A stretch of DNA of 56,652 nt from Alphaproteobacteria bacterium (GTDB taxonomy: Bacteria; Pseudomonadota; Alphaproteobacteria; UBA7985; JAUIBT01), in NCBI GenBank assembly GCA_030428565.1, contig JAUIDR010000020.1, forward strand, positions 1 to 56,652. The letters are read 5' to 3'. Positions 10,984 through 56,341 of this stretch are shown here, piece by piece. The notes under the pieces are model-generated. The model had not been told where the DNA came from, did no database searches, and worked only from the letters and a program-made list of their open reading frames with translations. How positions within the stretch are numbered: the first letter of the stretch is position 1; each line of letters starts with the position of its first letter. The translations under genes were made by a program, and so were the position numbers.

Positions 10984-11290
10984 CCAGCGTCGCGCCGCCG
11001 CGAGCATTGTTGCCCTTGATAGGTCGCTGAACAACAGGACCGATCTTTGAGCAGCGGCTTGGGGAGCGTCGCGGCTTTGGCATGTTACCAGCGTCGCGCC
11101 GCCGCGAGCATTGTTGCCCTTGATAGGTCGCTGAACAACAAGACCGATCTTTGAGCAGCGGCTTGGGGAGCGTCGCGGCTTTGGCATGTTACCAGCGCCG
11201 CGCCGCCGTGAGCATTGTTACCTTTGATAGGTCGCTGAACAACAGGACCGATCTTTGAGCAGCGGCTTGGGGAGCGTCGCGGCTTTGGGA
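10984..11290. repeat. three tandem copies of a 104-bp intergenic repeat
   Basis: The 363-bp gap between the GS-like gene and the Tm-1-like gene is filled by three direct copies (10984-11087, 11088-11191, 11192 to about 11290) with a handful of substitutions; the third carries the most (for example CGCGCCGCCGTGAGC and GTTACC). A partial echo (ACCAGCGCCGCGG) precedes the first copy. The period is not a multiple of three, so reverse-strand open frames here shift between copies and are not a gene. No terminator or promoter is obvious. It resembles a dispersed intergenic repeat that has amplified. Confidence 0.9.
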
Positions 11291-26625: not shown

Positions 26626-26663
26626 GGTCGGCTCGTCGGTTTGTAAGGGTGAGGCCTTTGGTT

Positions 26664-26748
26664 GATAAGTGCGGGCGGTCGATAAGTGCGGGCGGTCGAT
26701 AAGTGCGGGCGGTCGATAAGTGCGGGCGGTCGATAAGTGCGGGCGGTC
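26664..26748. repeat. 17-bp tandem repeat, five perfect copies
   Basis: GATAAGTGCGGGCGGTC is repeated five times without error between zapA and fdhD, ending 1 bp from the zapA stop codon. In the fdhD direction it lies in the mRNA leader 39 bp before the start. Perfect identity of copies suggests recent slippage, so copy number may vary between strains. Confidence 0.97.
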
Positions 26749-26749
26749 G

Positions 26750-27373
26750 TTAGGTGGCGGGCGGGTCGGCTTTGGGTTCGGCGCTGACGCCCTCGTCATC
26801 AGCGGGCAAGCGAGGCTCAACCTGGGCAAGGTCGCGCTCCATGCCTTCTAGGCGTCCGGCCATTTCGTCAAATACCTCCGCCAAATAGAGCTGGGTGGCC
26901 TGTAGGATTTGGTCTTGAGCGCGCGCGGTCGCTTGATTTGCGGTTGCTGGGTCGCTGGCTGGCGGGTCGCTGGCTTCCTTTGCACTGGCTTCCTTAGCAT
27001 TGGCGGCCATTTCGTCACTGGCCCCGTCATCGGAATTCGGGTCGCCAACGGCCAGGGTGCCGCTTGCACCGCTGCCGCTTTCAACGCTGCTGCTTTCTAC
27101 TCCGGCGCTCGCGGCTGTCGCGCGGTCCTGGGACTGGTCCTGACCGTGGATGATGGCATGGCTACGCTGGCGTTCTAATTCATCGGCTCTGTCGGCAAAT
27201 TGCAGGGCGGCCAACATGAGCAAGCGGGTGGGCGAGTGCCCGGGGTTGGTCTCTGCAAGGCGAGTGACCAGTGCCGCTACTTCGGCACCCATGGCTTGAA
27301 CGCGCGCTTCTTGGCCCGCCTCGCAGACCACGCGGTGCGAAAAGCCACCAATGATGAGTTCGACTTCGGGCAC
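26750..27373 (-). CDS. zapA: cell division protein ZapA with long C-terminal extension
   Basis: A 207-aa protein. Residues 1-70 match ZapA: VELIIGGFSHRVVCEAGQEA followed by LVTRLAETNPGHSPTRLLML and the helix AALQFADRADELERQ. ZapA binds FtsZ and bundles protofilaments at the Z-ring. Usual ZapA is 100-130 aa; here about 85 residues of Ala/Ser/Asp-rich low complexity (ending PPASDPATANQATARAQDQ) join the head to a terminal helix (LYLAEVFDEMAGRLEGMERD). It is coupled to the upstream coiled-coil gene (3-bp gap). In alphaproteobacteria this gene pair is a conserved arrangement near gap, as seen here. Confidence 0.85.
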   Translation of the reverse strand: MPEVELIIGGFSHRVVCEAGQEARVQAMGAEVAALVTRLAETNPGHSPTRLLMLAALQFADRADELERQRSHAIIHGQDQSQDRATAASAGVESSSVESGSGASGTLAVGDPNSDDGASDEMAANAKEASAKEASDPPASDPATANQATARAQDQILQATQLYLAEVFDEMAGRLEGMERDLAQVEPRLPADDEGVSAEPKADPPAT

Positions 27374-30020: not shown

Positions 30021-32486
30021 CTAGGCGACAGCCTCAAAGCGAATATTGAACAAGCTGGTCCAATTGCTGGCGCTCATGCCGCTGGCATAGATTGATACGT
30101 TGTTGTTGTTGACGTAGACCACCGCCGCTCCACTGGAATTCTTGGTGGAAATGAACAGATTGGTTTCGGGACGATACCCTTGGGGCAGCGTGAAAATGGT
30201 CTGCTGGTGGGTGACGCCGGTGACAATGCCGCTCAGTTCAACCAGGCCGCGATCGTCTTTGCGGTAGCGAACCGGGCCGTAGTCGCTGGCCTGAAAGCTG
30301 GCCCCGTTGACCCAACCTGCGGCGCCGACATCGCCCAAGTTGAGCCAGGTTCCAAGGCTCCCTGATCCGCCAGCGCTCTCGGTCGCTGGAACCCAATTGC
30401 TGCCGTCAAATTTGAGGATGTCTCCAACATTGGGGGTTGTGTTGGTGACATTGCTAAGGTCTGACAACTGGCCGGACGCTAGAACCTGCGGGCCGGTCGC
30501 ACGCGCCCATTGCACGCCATCATATCGAAGCAAATCGTAAGCGACGGCGCCGGTAGTCGAGACATCGGACAGACCATCCAAAGAGCTAGCGCCGCCGGTT
30601 TGAGCCTGTGCCGTCCAGCTTGTGCCGTCGTAGGTTAGTACCTGGCCATTAGCGGCGCCGGTGGTGGAGACATCGCTGAGACCGTCCAAGGAAGGGCTTG
30701 GAATCGCTTGCGACGTCCAGCTTGTTCCGTCGTAAGTCAGCACCTCGCCGTTGGTAGCTCCCGTCGTTGAGACATCCGTCAGACCGTCCAGAGAAGTGCT
30801 CGGTATTGCCTGCGATGCCCAGCTTGTGCCGTCGTAGGTTAGTACCTCGCCATTGGCTGCACCGGTGGTCGAGACATCAGACAGACCATCCAAAGCAGCG
30901 CTCGGGATCGCTTGCGACGCCCAGTTTGTGCCGTCGTAAGTCAGCACCTCGCCGTTGGCCGCACCAGTGGTGGCGACATCGCTGAGACCGTCCAAAGAAG
31001 CGCTTGGAATCGCTTGCGACGTCCAGCTTGTGCCGTCGTAGGTTAATACCTCGCCGCTGGCCGCACCAGTGGTGGCGACATCGCTGAGACCGTCGAGTGA
31101 GCTAGCACCAGCGGCCTGAGCGGTCCAGTTGGCACCGTCGTAAGTCAGGACTTGGCCACTGGCGGCGCCGGTGGTGGAGACATCTGTCAGCCCATTCAGC
31201 GAGTTGCTGGTGCCAGCCTGCGCGTCCCAGCTGGTGCCATTAAAAGTCAAAACTTGTCCGTTGGCTGCGCCCGCTGTGGAGACATCCGTAAGTCCATCCA
31301 GCGAGTTGCTGGTGCCCGCTTGCGCGGTCCAGCTGGTGCCGTCGTAGGTCAGTACCTGGCCATTAGCGGCGCCGGTAGTTGACACGTCGCTGAGACCGTC
31401 GAGGGAGCTAGCGCCAGCCGCTTGAGCCTGGGCGGTCCAGCTCGTTCCGTCGTAGGTTAATACCTCGCCATTGGCTGCACCGGTGGTCGAGACATCGGAC
31501 AGACCATCCAATGAGCTAGCGCCGCCCGCCTGAGCCTGTGCCGTCCAGCTGGTGCCGTCGTAAGTCAACACTTCGCCATTGGCTGCACCGGTGGTCGAGA
31601 CATCGCTGAGACCGTCCAAAGAAGCGCTTGGAATCGCTTGCGACGCCCAGCTTGTGCCGTCGTAAGTCAGCACCTCGCCGTTGGCTGCTCCCGTCGTTGA
31701 GACATCCGTCAGACCGTCCAGCGAGCTAGCGCCGCCCGCCTGAGCCTGGGCCGACCAGCTGGTGCCGTCGTAGGTTAGTACCTCGCCATTGGCTGCACCG
31801 GTGGTCGAGACATCGGACAGACCATCCAAAGAGCTAGCGCCGCCGGTTTGAGCCTGGGCCGACCAGCTTGTGCCGTCGAAGGTCAGCACCTCGCCGTTGG
31901 TAGCTCCCGTCGTTGAGACATCCGTCAGACCGTCCAGCGAGCTAGCGCCAGCCGCCTGAGCCTGTGCCGTCCAGCTTGTGCCGTCGTAAGTCAACACTTC
32001 GCCGCTGGCCGCGCCGGTGGTGGAGACATCGCTGAGGCTGTCGAGGGAAGCGCTGGCAATCGCCTGCGCCGTCCAACCGGTGCCATCGAAAGTCAGTACC
32101 TGGCCGCTCAATGCGCCCGCGGTGGACACGTCGTCCAATTCATCCAAAGCCGATGCGGCAGCCAAAGCCGTGCTGGTCCACTGGCTGCCGTCGTAGCTTA
32201 GAATATCGCCGCTGCTTACCGAAGTCGTCAAAACGTTCCGCAGGTCGCCCAAACTGAGCGCTGCGCCTTCCACCGACGCCCCCCTAACGGCTAGGGTGGT
32301 ATTCGGATTGGTCGCGTCAAAAGTGGCGATTTCCATATAGTTATCGCCACCGACATTGAATTTCATCGAAACGTTGGGGTAAGCAGAGGTATCGTACCAA
32401 ATCGCGGTCGGGAAATCACTGGGGAGCTTGCCCCAATATACACGTCCTTGAGGGTCAACACGTCCTTGAGGGTCAAACTGTGCCAT
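30021..32486 (-). CDS. phage-tail-fibre-like protein with about 18 tandem repeats
   Basis: An 821-aa protein from ATG 32486 (MAQFDPQGRV), chosen because AAGGAG precedes it. After an N-terminal region of about 80 residues come about 18 repeats of 33-36 residues with core LDGLSDVSTTGAANGEVLTY then DGTSWTAQA, separated by short linkers of three kinds (QAQ-GAS, QAIPSA, QAGTSN). The C-terminal 110 residues differ: YGPVRYRKDDRGLVELSGIV, FTLPQGYRPETNLF and a final beta-rich FNIRFEAVA. This tip resembles C-terminal domains of phage tail or side-tail fibres, and the repeats resemble fibre shaft modules. No signal peptide, anchor or phage genes are nearby. The role is unknown; an adhesin or captured fibre is possible. 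Confidence 0.82.
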   Translation of the reverse strand: MAQFDPQGRVDPQGRVYWGKLPSDFPTAIWYDTSAYPNVSMKFNVGGDNYMEIATFDATNPNTTLAVRGASVEGAALSLGDLRNVLTTSVSSGDILSYDGSQWTSTALAAASALDELDDVSTAGALSGQVLTFDGTGWTAQAIASASLDSLSDVSTTGAASGEVLTYDGTSWTAQAQAAGASSLDGLTDVSTTGATNGEVLTFDGTSWSAQAQTGGASSLDGLSDVSTTGAANGEVLTYDGTSWSAQAQAGGASSLDGLTDVSTTGAANGEVLTYDGTSWASQAIPSASLDGLSDVSTTGAANGEVLTYDGTSWTAQAQAGGASSLDGLSDVSTTGAANGEVLTYDGTSWTAQAQAAGASSLDGLSDVSTTGAANGQVLTYDGTSWTAQAGTSNSLDGLTDVSTAGAANGQVLTFNGTSWDAQAGTSNSLNGLTDVSTTGAASGQVLTYDGANWTAQAAGASSLDGLSDVATTGAASGEVLTYDGTSWTSQAIPSASLDGLSDVATTGAANGEVLTYDGTNWASQAIPSAALDGLSDVSTTGAANGEVLTYDGTSWASQAIPSTSLDGLTDVSTTGATNGEVLTYDGTSWTSQAIPSPSLDGLSDVSTTGAANGQVLTYDGTSWTAQAQTGGASSLDGLSDVSTTGAVAYDLLRYDGVQWARATGPQVLASGQLSDLSNVTNTTPNVGDILKFDGSNWVPATESAGGSGSLGTWLNLGDVGAAGWVNGASFQASDYGPVRYRKDDRGLVELSGIVTGVTHQQTIFTLPQGYRPETNLFISTKNSSGAAVVYVNNNNVSIYASGMSASNWTSLFNIRFEAVA
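30560..32200 (-). repeat. tandem 102/108-bp coding repeats in the tail-fibre-like gene
   Basis: Repeats of 34 or 36 codons share long stretches of identity (for example TACGACGGCACAAGCTGG in many units), while silent third positions and linkers vary between blocks. The pattern is what unequal recombination plus drift would give. Assembly collapse or expansion is a risk here. Confidence 0.93.
32441..32476. repeat. 18-bp perfect tandem duplication
   Basis: CACGTCCTTGAGGGTCAA occurs twice head to tail in the N-terminal coding region of the tail-fibre-like gene, duplicating a six-residue segment (two DPQGRV units). In frame, so the protein is intact. Confidence 0.95.
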
Positions 32487-32678
32487 AAGGGCTCCTTTAG
32501 GTTGGGAGAATCCGCGCCCCAACCCAATTGGAGCCGGTGCTCACTTGAGCGATCTTCTCCAAAGGTCAAGAACAATTAAGGAACAAAAACTGAAAATGCA
32601 ACAAAAACCTGCCGTAGGGCTGAGCTTGGCCTGGCGGTCCGCGCTCTTGGTTTCACGTAGCAAAAGCAAGGGGGTGGC

Positions 32679-39029: not shown

Positions 39030-39216
39030 ACGCATCCTTCTGTCCTTGGCGCCTGAGAGCTTTATCCCTTCGGCGGAGCCAGGCGAAGCTGGCTCTCTCT
39101 CCAGAAATACGAGTGTGATCGCGGTCCTTTTGCCTGAGAGTTTCCGGACGCAGTTGCTCCTTCGGCGGCCTCATGTCAGCGCGCTTTTCACCGCGCCTCA
39201 AGGCACTCTCCCGAGA
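39030..39216 (-). ncRNA. tandem glycine riboswitch
   Basis: On the minus strand two glycine aptamers follow each other. The first begins GGGAGAGTGCC near 39213 and has GCCGCCGAAGGAGCAACTGC, then ACTCTCAGGCAAAAGGACCG. The second begins TGGAGAGAGAGCC near 39108 and has CCGCCGAAGGGATAAAGC, then CTCTCAGGCGCCAAGGACAG, ending near 39035. These are the conserved GGAGAG, CCGAAGGnGCAA and CTCTCAGGC elements of the class. Tandem glycine riboswitches activate gcv operons when glycine is plentiful, and the location directly upstream of gcvT fits. Confidence 0.96.
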
Positions 39217-39249
39217 TCGCGGCGACCCTAGCAAAGAGCTAGTCGCTTT

Positions 39250-55627: not shown

Positions 55628-56341
55628 ATGAGCCCATATTCGCCAATCCCTCGTCAGATGTGGTGGACAACAGCCTACCAAACATCGTCTGGCCCCGACG
55701 GCGTACCGCTGATGTCGCCTCGTACAGGTCAGGTCAAACGGGATCAACTCATGGATGATGCAAAGAAAGCGGCGGAGGAAAGGGCAGCGATTGCGCGCAG
55801 TATTCGAGCAGCGGAAAGGGAGTCGGTGCGCGCAAAACAAGCTGCTTTGGCCGCGGGCCAAGCCCGCGCTGAGCGGCAAAGTCTGCCTTACCGGCCTTCG
55901 TTCCAGTTGGCCCCAGGCCAGGCCCGCGCCGAGCGCCAAAGCCTGCCTTACCAGCCCTCGTTTCAGCTGGCCCCAGGCCAGGCCCGCGCTGAGCGCCAAA
56001 GCCTGCCTTACTGGCCTTCGATCCAGCTAGCACCAGGCCAAGCTCGCGCTGAGCGGCAAAGTCTGCCTTACCGGCCTTCGATCCAGCTAGCACCAGGCCG
56101 AGCTCGCGCTGAGCGGCAAAGTCTGCCTTACCGGCCTTCGATCCAGTTGGCCCCGGGCCAAGCGCGTGCGGAGCGCCAAAGCCTGCCTTACCGGCCTTCG
56201 ATCCAGCTAGCACCAGGCCAGGCCCGCGCTGAGCGCCAAAGCCTGCCTTACCGGCCTTCGATCCAGCTAACACCAGGCCAAGCGCGTGCTGAGCGCCAGC
56301 TGGACACCCGCATTAACCTTGCGGGATTGAGGTCGCCGTGA
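55628..56341 (+). CDS. protein with 20-residue tandem repeats, unrecognised
   Basis: A 237-aa protein from ATG 55628 (MSPYSPIPRQMWWTTAYQTS), preceded by AAGG. The first 75 residues contain a charged helix (KKAAEERAAIARSIRAAERE). The rest is eight copies, the last incomplete, of a 20-residue unit: GQARAERQSLPYRPSIQLAP. The repeats end abruptly in QLDTRINLAGLRSP, just before an IS5-like transposase. The unit is basic and proline-containing, likely extended or helical with turns. No signal peptide or known domain. It may be a real surface or nucleic-acid-binding protein, or an expanded repeat with a decayed end; function is unknown. Confidence 0.6.
   Translation: MSPYSPIPRQMWWTTAYQTSSGPDGVPLMSPRTGQVKRDQLMDDAKKAAEERAAIARSIRAAERESVRAKQAALAAGQARAERQSLPYRPSFQLAPGQARAERQSLPYQPSFQLAPGQARAERQSLPYWPSIQLAPGQARAERQSLPYRPSIQLAPGRARAERQSLPYRPSIQLAPGQARAERQSLPYRPSIQLAPGQARAERQSLPYRPSIQLTPGQARAERQLDTRINLAGLRSP
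55857..56300 (+). repeat. 60-bp coding tandem repeat, about 7.4 copies
   Basis: The period is exactly 60 bp with roughly 85-97% identity between units (for example CTGCCTTACCGGCCTTCGAT in most). Changes cluster at silent or conservative positions (CGG/CAG/TGG at one codon). Units 4-7 are the most alike, indicating recent amplification. Confidence 0.97.

Follow-up and report, generated by a model that had tools for sequence, protein, structure and literature searches.

A phage-type fibre is encoded on its own, behind a conserved 5' leader, at the same housekeeping position in all three compared genomes of one alphaproteobacterial genus, and there is good support for a conserved, free-standing fibre gene preceded by such a leader. 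The explanation that we consider most likely, although we hold it tentatively, is that this is a domesticated phage-type receptor-binding fibre, and our best guess is that it is encoded in trans for a phage-derived particle. The gene was found in a stretch of 56,652 nucleotides (the window), which is the whole of contig C108 of a draft genome (G000; 114 contigs, 99% complete), and was compared with two other genomes of the genus, G001 and G002. The genus-wide conservation, the difference in repeat number and the RNA leader are new in this analysis. The features of the locus are as follows:

32575 to 32604, minus strand: promoter-like site TTGTTG-N18-CTTAAT, recognised by eye from the alignment; TATAAT in both orthologs
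32490 to 32575, minus strand: conserved structured 5' leader, from alignment and folding of three species
30021 to 32486, minus strand: fibre-like gene, 821 aa, without signal peptide and without cysteine; orthologs in the same slot
32253 to 32486, minus strand: N-terminal domain (N-domain), residues 1-78, genus-only among 385 sampled genomes of the class
30360 to 32252, minus strand: shaft, 18 units of 34-38 aa, residues 79-709
30024 to 30359, minus strand: C-terminal tip of ~112 residues (about 710-821), all-beta and receptor-binding-head-like in a low-confidence model

A lone fibre gene at a fixed locus

The open reading frame runs on the minus strand from an ATG at 32486 to a stop codon ending at 30021, and its sequence bears out the phage-fibre-like gene of shaft modules and tip-like C-terminus that the first-pass annotation had recognised there. 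That annotation had also placed the gene by itself between 5-formyl-THF cyclo-ligase and ymdB; the flanking products indeed belong to PF01812 and PF13277, respectively, and GAPDH and a DUF4259 protein are encoded next to them, with glycine cleavage genes (recognised from their translations) also nearby. The latter group is accompanied by a glycine riboswitch at 39112-39223 on the minus strand (RF00504, 58.8 bits), an ordinary one located upstream of gcvT-gcvH-gcvP. No phage structural genes were visible by eye in the ORF list of the window, in agreement with the earlier statement, and no chaperone gene adjoins the fibre gene. Rather than lying within or beside tail morphogenesis genes, it has housekeeping flanks in all three genomes. 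It is present in a single copy in its own genome and its G+C content is host-like (0.607 vs 0.601 for the window).

The ortholog in G002 (contig JAUIBT010000026) occupies the same slot and encodes 326 aa with four units, while that in G001 is split over two contigs, both ending inside the gene, of which one carries the N-domain and ymdB, and the other the tip, the cyclo-ligase gene and GAPDH. The first ten residues, MAQFDPQGRV, are identical in the three species, and an 18-bp tandem duplication in the N-domain (DPQGRV twice) is missing from both orthologs. The fibre gene had no match at E 0.001 in the sampled genomes of the same order or of other classes; among the 385 genomes of the class the N-domain was specific to the genus, and the remaining matches covered the repeats or were marginal.

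The gene is under purifying selection, with dN/dS of 0.05-0.24. Synonymous divergence is lower in two of its modules than around them, namely in the N-domain between G001 and G002 (dS 0.43 vs 0.76 for ymdB; 79 codons) and in the tip between G000 and G001 (0.52 vs 1.06 or more for the neighbours; 115 codons), which suggests, from these small samples, an exchange of modules between species.

These observations bear on the reading that the gene is a dead prophage remnant, a misassembly or a contaminant. The genomes are draft MAGs, and in G001 the gene is interrupted by a gap between contigs, but the same slot and flanks recur in three genomes with intact frames, and the purifying selection, the host-like G+C content and the conserved leader also argue against such an origin, which we regard as very improbable and already largely refuted. 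In particular, the possibility of a prophage misassembled at this place, raised in the first-pass annotation, does not hold, since three species have the gene in this slot.

The shaft had been described as about 18 near-identical repeats. Motif splitting of the protein gave exactly 18 units of 34, 35, 36 or 38 aa, and TRF reported a 102-bp period across 30604-32106 with ~72% matches. Near-identity holds for the protein (mean of 85% aa identity over 28 residues for units 3-16) but less so for the DNA (79% nt; pairs 65-95%), and the differences between units at codon positions 1, 2 and 3 amount to 0.149, 0.056 and 0.435. Since nucleotide identity falls below amino acid identity and the changes are mostly at third positions, the units are old and have been maintained at the protein level. 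The longest exact repeat in the array is 56 nt, and thus the array should be resolvable by a short-read assembler, the figure of 18 being the count of a draft assembly.

The three classes of linker reported earlier are real, but their arrangement in blocks is only partial: QAQxxGASS occurs in units 3, 4, 5, 7, 8 and 16, QAIPSxS in units 6 and 12-15, and QAGTSNS/QAAGASS in units 9-11. The past duplication proposed with them is supported, in the form of block duplication, by the DNA identities of units 5 and 14 (93%) and of units 6 and 15 (95%). A comparison of repeat counts gave 18 units here versus four in the sister species G002 (in G001 the assembly breaks within the gene). Units 1, 2, 17 and 18 are the counterparts of the four G002 units, the fourth of which begins with I and was identified by eye, and units 3-16 are extra copies.

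Other tandem arrays in the window comprise a 60-bp array at 55856-56298 (7.4 copies, 88% matches), immediately followed at the end of the contig by a transposase fragment (DUF772), a 17-bp array of ~6 copies at 26660-26764 in the 5' part of an fdhD-like ORF, and a 104-bp unit at 10984-11288 (2.9 copies, 97% matches) around the boundary of glutamine synthetase-like and UPF0261 genes.

The conserved 5' leader

Most of the 95 aligned leader positions are invariant across the three species, and the sequence directly 3' of the stop codon is far less similar among them than the leader. In each of the three species the leader forms a more stable fold than shuffled sequences do (z of -2.17, -2.90 and -3.67). 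In the consensus fold the Shine-Dalgarno sequence GGAG (32495-32492) pairs with GGCUCC (32535-32530) around an inner hairpin (32527-32517/32507-32497), so that the predicted structure would hide the ribosome-binding site. In the minimum-energy fold of two species CUCC pairs instead with a conserved upstream UUGGAG, and it is therefore possible that the leader could take two alternative states. Covariation was uninformative with three sequences, and an Rfam scan of the leader returned no credible match. The promoter-like site upstream was missed by the promoter scan because its -35 element matches at 3 of 6 positions only.

Relatives of the protein and its route out of the cell

The shaft repeats match the PHROG families phrog_9729 ('tail fiber protein', E 8e-70) and phrog_9627 (1e-79), with ~30% identity to phage tail fibres. 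The fibres of PA5oct-like Pseudomonas phages, together with phrog_9729, resemble the protein in the repeat unit, at about this identity over many units; however, their N-domain differs and they are encoded with the rest of the virus. The N-domain of the orphan fibre had no match in viral contigs and phage records. Short matches of the repeat region to the Pfam families CBM_5_12, DUF2510 and TNT were rejected, as no stretch passed alone.

The relatives of the tip found by tblastn are tail proteins of Janthinobacterium, Streptococcus and Streptomyces phages and proteins of viral contigs, mostly annotated as phage tail proteins, and two of the related phage genes immediately follow a tip-attachment or tail-assembly gene and precede the holin gene. 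Both shaft and tip are thus related in sequence to phage tail proteins, the tip by weak matches (best E 6e-4 among phage records). No Pfam family was found for the tip, and its sole sequence matches in the PDB (IpaD and others, E 0.3 or more) were dismissed as noise.

The predicted structures are monomer models only, with mean pLDDT of 47-51; that of the tip reached 51, and the full-length G002 model (47) was kept out of the claims. When the tip model was searched against the PDB, the first four matches were lactococcal receptor-binding heads, led by those of p2 and TP901-1 at a weak E of 0.03, followed by adenovirus fibre heads. By VIA the tip scored Z 6.9 with the bIL170 head, 5.6 with AP22 gp53 and 5.4 with the R2 pyocin fibre; phage tip, head and fibre proteins lay at Z 5.3-7.1 amid unrelated beta folds of like Z, and Z below 8 can mean merely a common beta arrangement. 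The structural match to receptor-binding heads is supportive of a receptor-binding tip, not proof of it. The first-pass annotation had allowed that the C-terminal domain might turn out unlike fibres; the tblastn relatives and, weakly, the top ranks of the fold search point the other way. The lactococcal p2, TP901-1 and bIL170 proteins, although they are the top structural matches (E 0.03; Z 6.9), differ in that they sit on phage baseplates and have no long repeat shaft.

As noted in the first-pass annotation, the protein lacks an export signal: the maximal hydropathy over 19 residues is 0.83, with values below 0 near the N-terminus, a profile that does not accord with a Sec or Tat signal peptide. 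This matters for the main rival explanation, in which the protein is a secreted, stand-alone adhesin that leaves the cell by an unrecognised route and holds surfaces or cells, its fibre architecture having been borrowed from phage. Four distant alphaproteobacterial genomes encode large proteins that contain repeats of the same kind, have what by eye look like signal peptides and are not accompanied by visible phage genes; several surface adhesins rank behind the phage heads in the fold search; and the repeat number varies, as is common among adhesins. On the other hand, the fibre protein lacks a signal peptide, a hydrophobic segment and an anchor, no secretion system was recognised beside its gene, and the sequence relatives of its tip are mostly annotated as phage tail proteins. 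On balance, we consider an adhesin rather unlikely. The large repeat proteins of the four distant genomes (L034, 8589-10634; L036, 5213-7746; L035, 5233-9678; L033, 5036-7513) resemble one another at the N-terminus, where they begin for example with QERFVTQSGGRGLQNAK; the two that were scanned yielded no Pfam family.

The absent export signal, together with the conservation of gene and leader, would also suit a retained protein that belongs to no particle and acts inside the cell or is released on lysis, e.g. as a decoy of phage receptors or a block to superinfection. Nothing specific favours such a role, however, and no defence genes were noticed beside the gene, which makes it less probable still than an adhesin.

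Candidate particles and a trans-encoded fibre

A fibre encoded in trans is the reading we favour on account of the missing export signal, the phage-fibre-like shaft and tip, and a parallel within the Alphaproteobacteria. The RcGTA genes provide a precedent: they occupy five loci, and those for recognition lie apart from the head-tail cluster (PMC11409702). The RcGTA tail fibre, Rcc00171, has an R-pyocin fibre and AP22 gp53 as reported homologues (PMC7296036). Rcc00171 is likewise an alphaproteobacterial fibre of phage type, serving a phage-derived particle, and counterparts of its homologues are among the weak fold matches of our tip. The RcGTA marker PF13547 was not found in G000, nor PF09343 in any of the three genomes, with positive Caulobacter controls for both; a fibre of an RcGTA-type GTA was therefore rejected.

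For the suggestion that the fibre is part of a contractile particle encoded elsewhere, candidates are provided by contractile-tail genes, which are present in all three genomes on contigs other than that of the fibre locus. A tape-measure search led to contig C59 of G000, which encodes P2-like sheath, tape measure, tail, hub, holin, endolysin-like and fibre genes. The sheath of this module (L054) is 97-98% identical in the modules of G001 (contig C35, L062) and G002 (contig C39, L055), and a further related sheath copy lies on contig C4 of G002 in a more complete prophage that also encodes a portal (PF05136), a capsid protein (PF03864) and baseplate J. Neither G000 nor G001 yielded a match to baseplate J. 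The negative result for the sheath family PF04984 in all three genomes is a false negative, as each of them proved to encode the sheath when searched with a protein query, and the absence of the HK97-type portal PF04860 is uninformative because the resident phage type, represented by the G002 prophage, uses PF05136.

The sheath gene is cut off by the end of contig C59, and the tape measures of the G000 and G002 modules share only 43% identity. As the C59 and C39 modules have unlike flanks and a low sheath dS (0.25-0.54), they resemble mobile prophages more than a fixed particle. They come with their own fibre genes, in which tblastn detected no segment of the orphan fibre, and hence a shared attachment domain was not seen. 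Against a fibre mounted in trans thus stand these resident fibres, the failure to find baseplate J in G000 and G001, the absent RcGTA markers, an N-domain with no phage match, the low confidence of the tip model and the lack of an adjacent chaperone gene. Of the three alternatives named in the first-pass annotation, i.e. a captured fibre, part of a particle and an adhesin, none is proved, although the facts on which they drew were right.

If the fibre is indeed mounted in trans, the P2-like contractile tails of the genus would be the candidate particle. The protein would be made when the leader opens the ribosome-binding site, would presumably trimerise, and would leave the cell as the fibre of a tail particle of phage origin or when the cell lyses. 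The N-domain may anchor it to the particle and the tip may attach to related cells through a glycan or protein, while the length of the shaft would shift by gain and loss of units. R-type tailocins offer a possible analogy for the mode of action, as their fibres choose the kin cells to be targeted, and genus-wide recombination of these fibres has been reported (PMC13195805). In the genome studied here, by contrast, the fibre lies outside the tail cluster, and the tail genes are at most those of a putative tailocin.

Where bacteria carry captured phage fibres, these usually belong to prophages, tailocin clusters or GTAs. It seems conceivable, and we offer it as a leading but tentative account, that one phage receptor-binding fibre has become a permanent possession of this genus at an unchanging chromosomal locus, with a leader gating its translation and a shaft that differs between species in its number of units (4 to 18), either as a part mounted in trans or as a lone recognition device. 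If this is true, domestication can act on the recognition part by itself, as a lone fibre maintained by selection at one locus across species with a conserved leader, and the range of 4 to 18 units would constitute a natural series for asking what the length of the shaft does.
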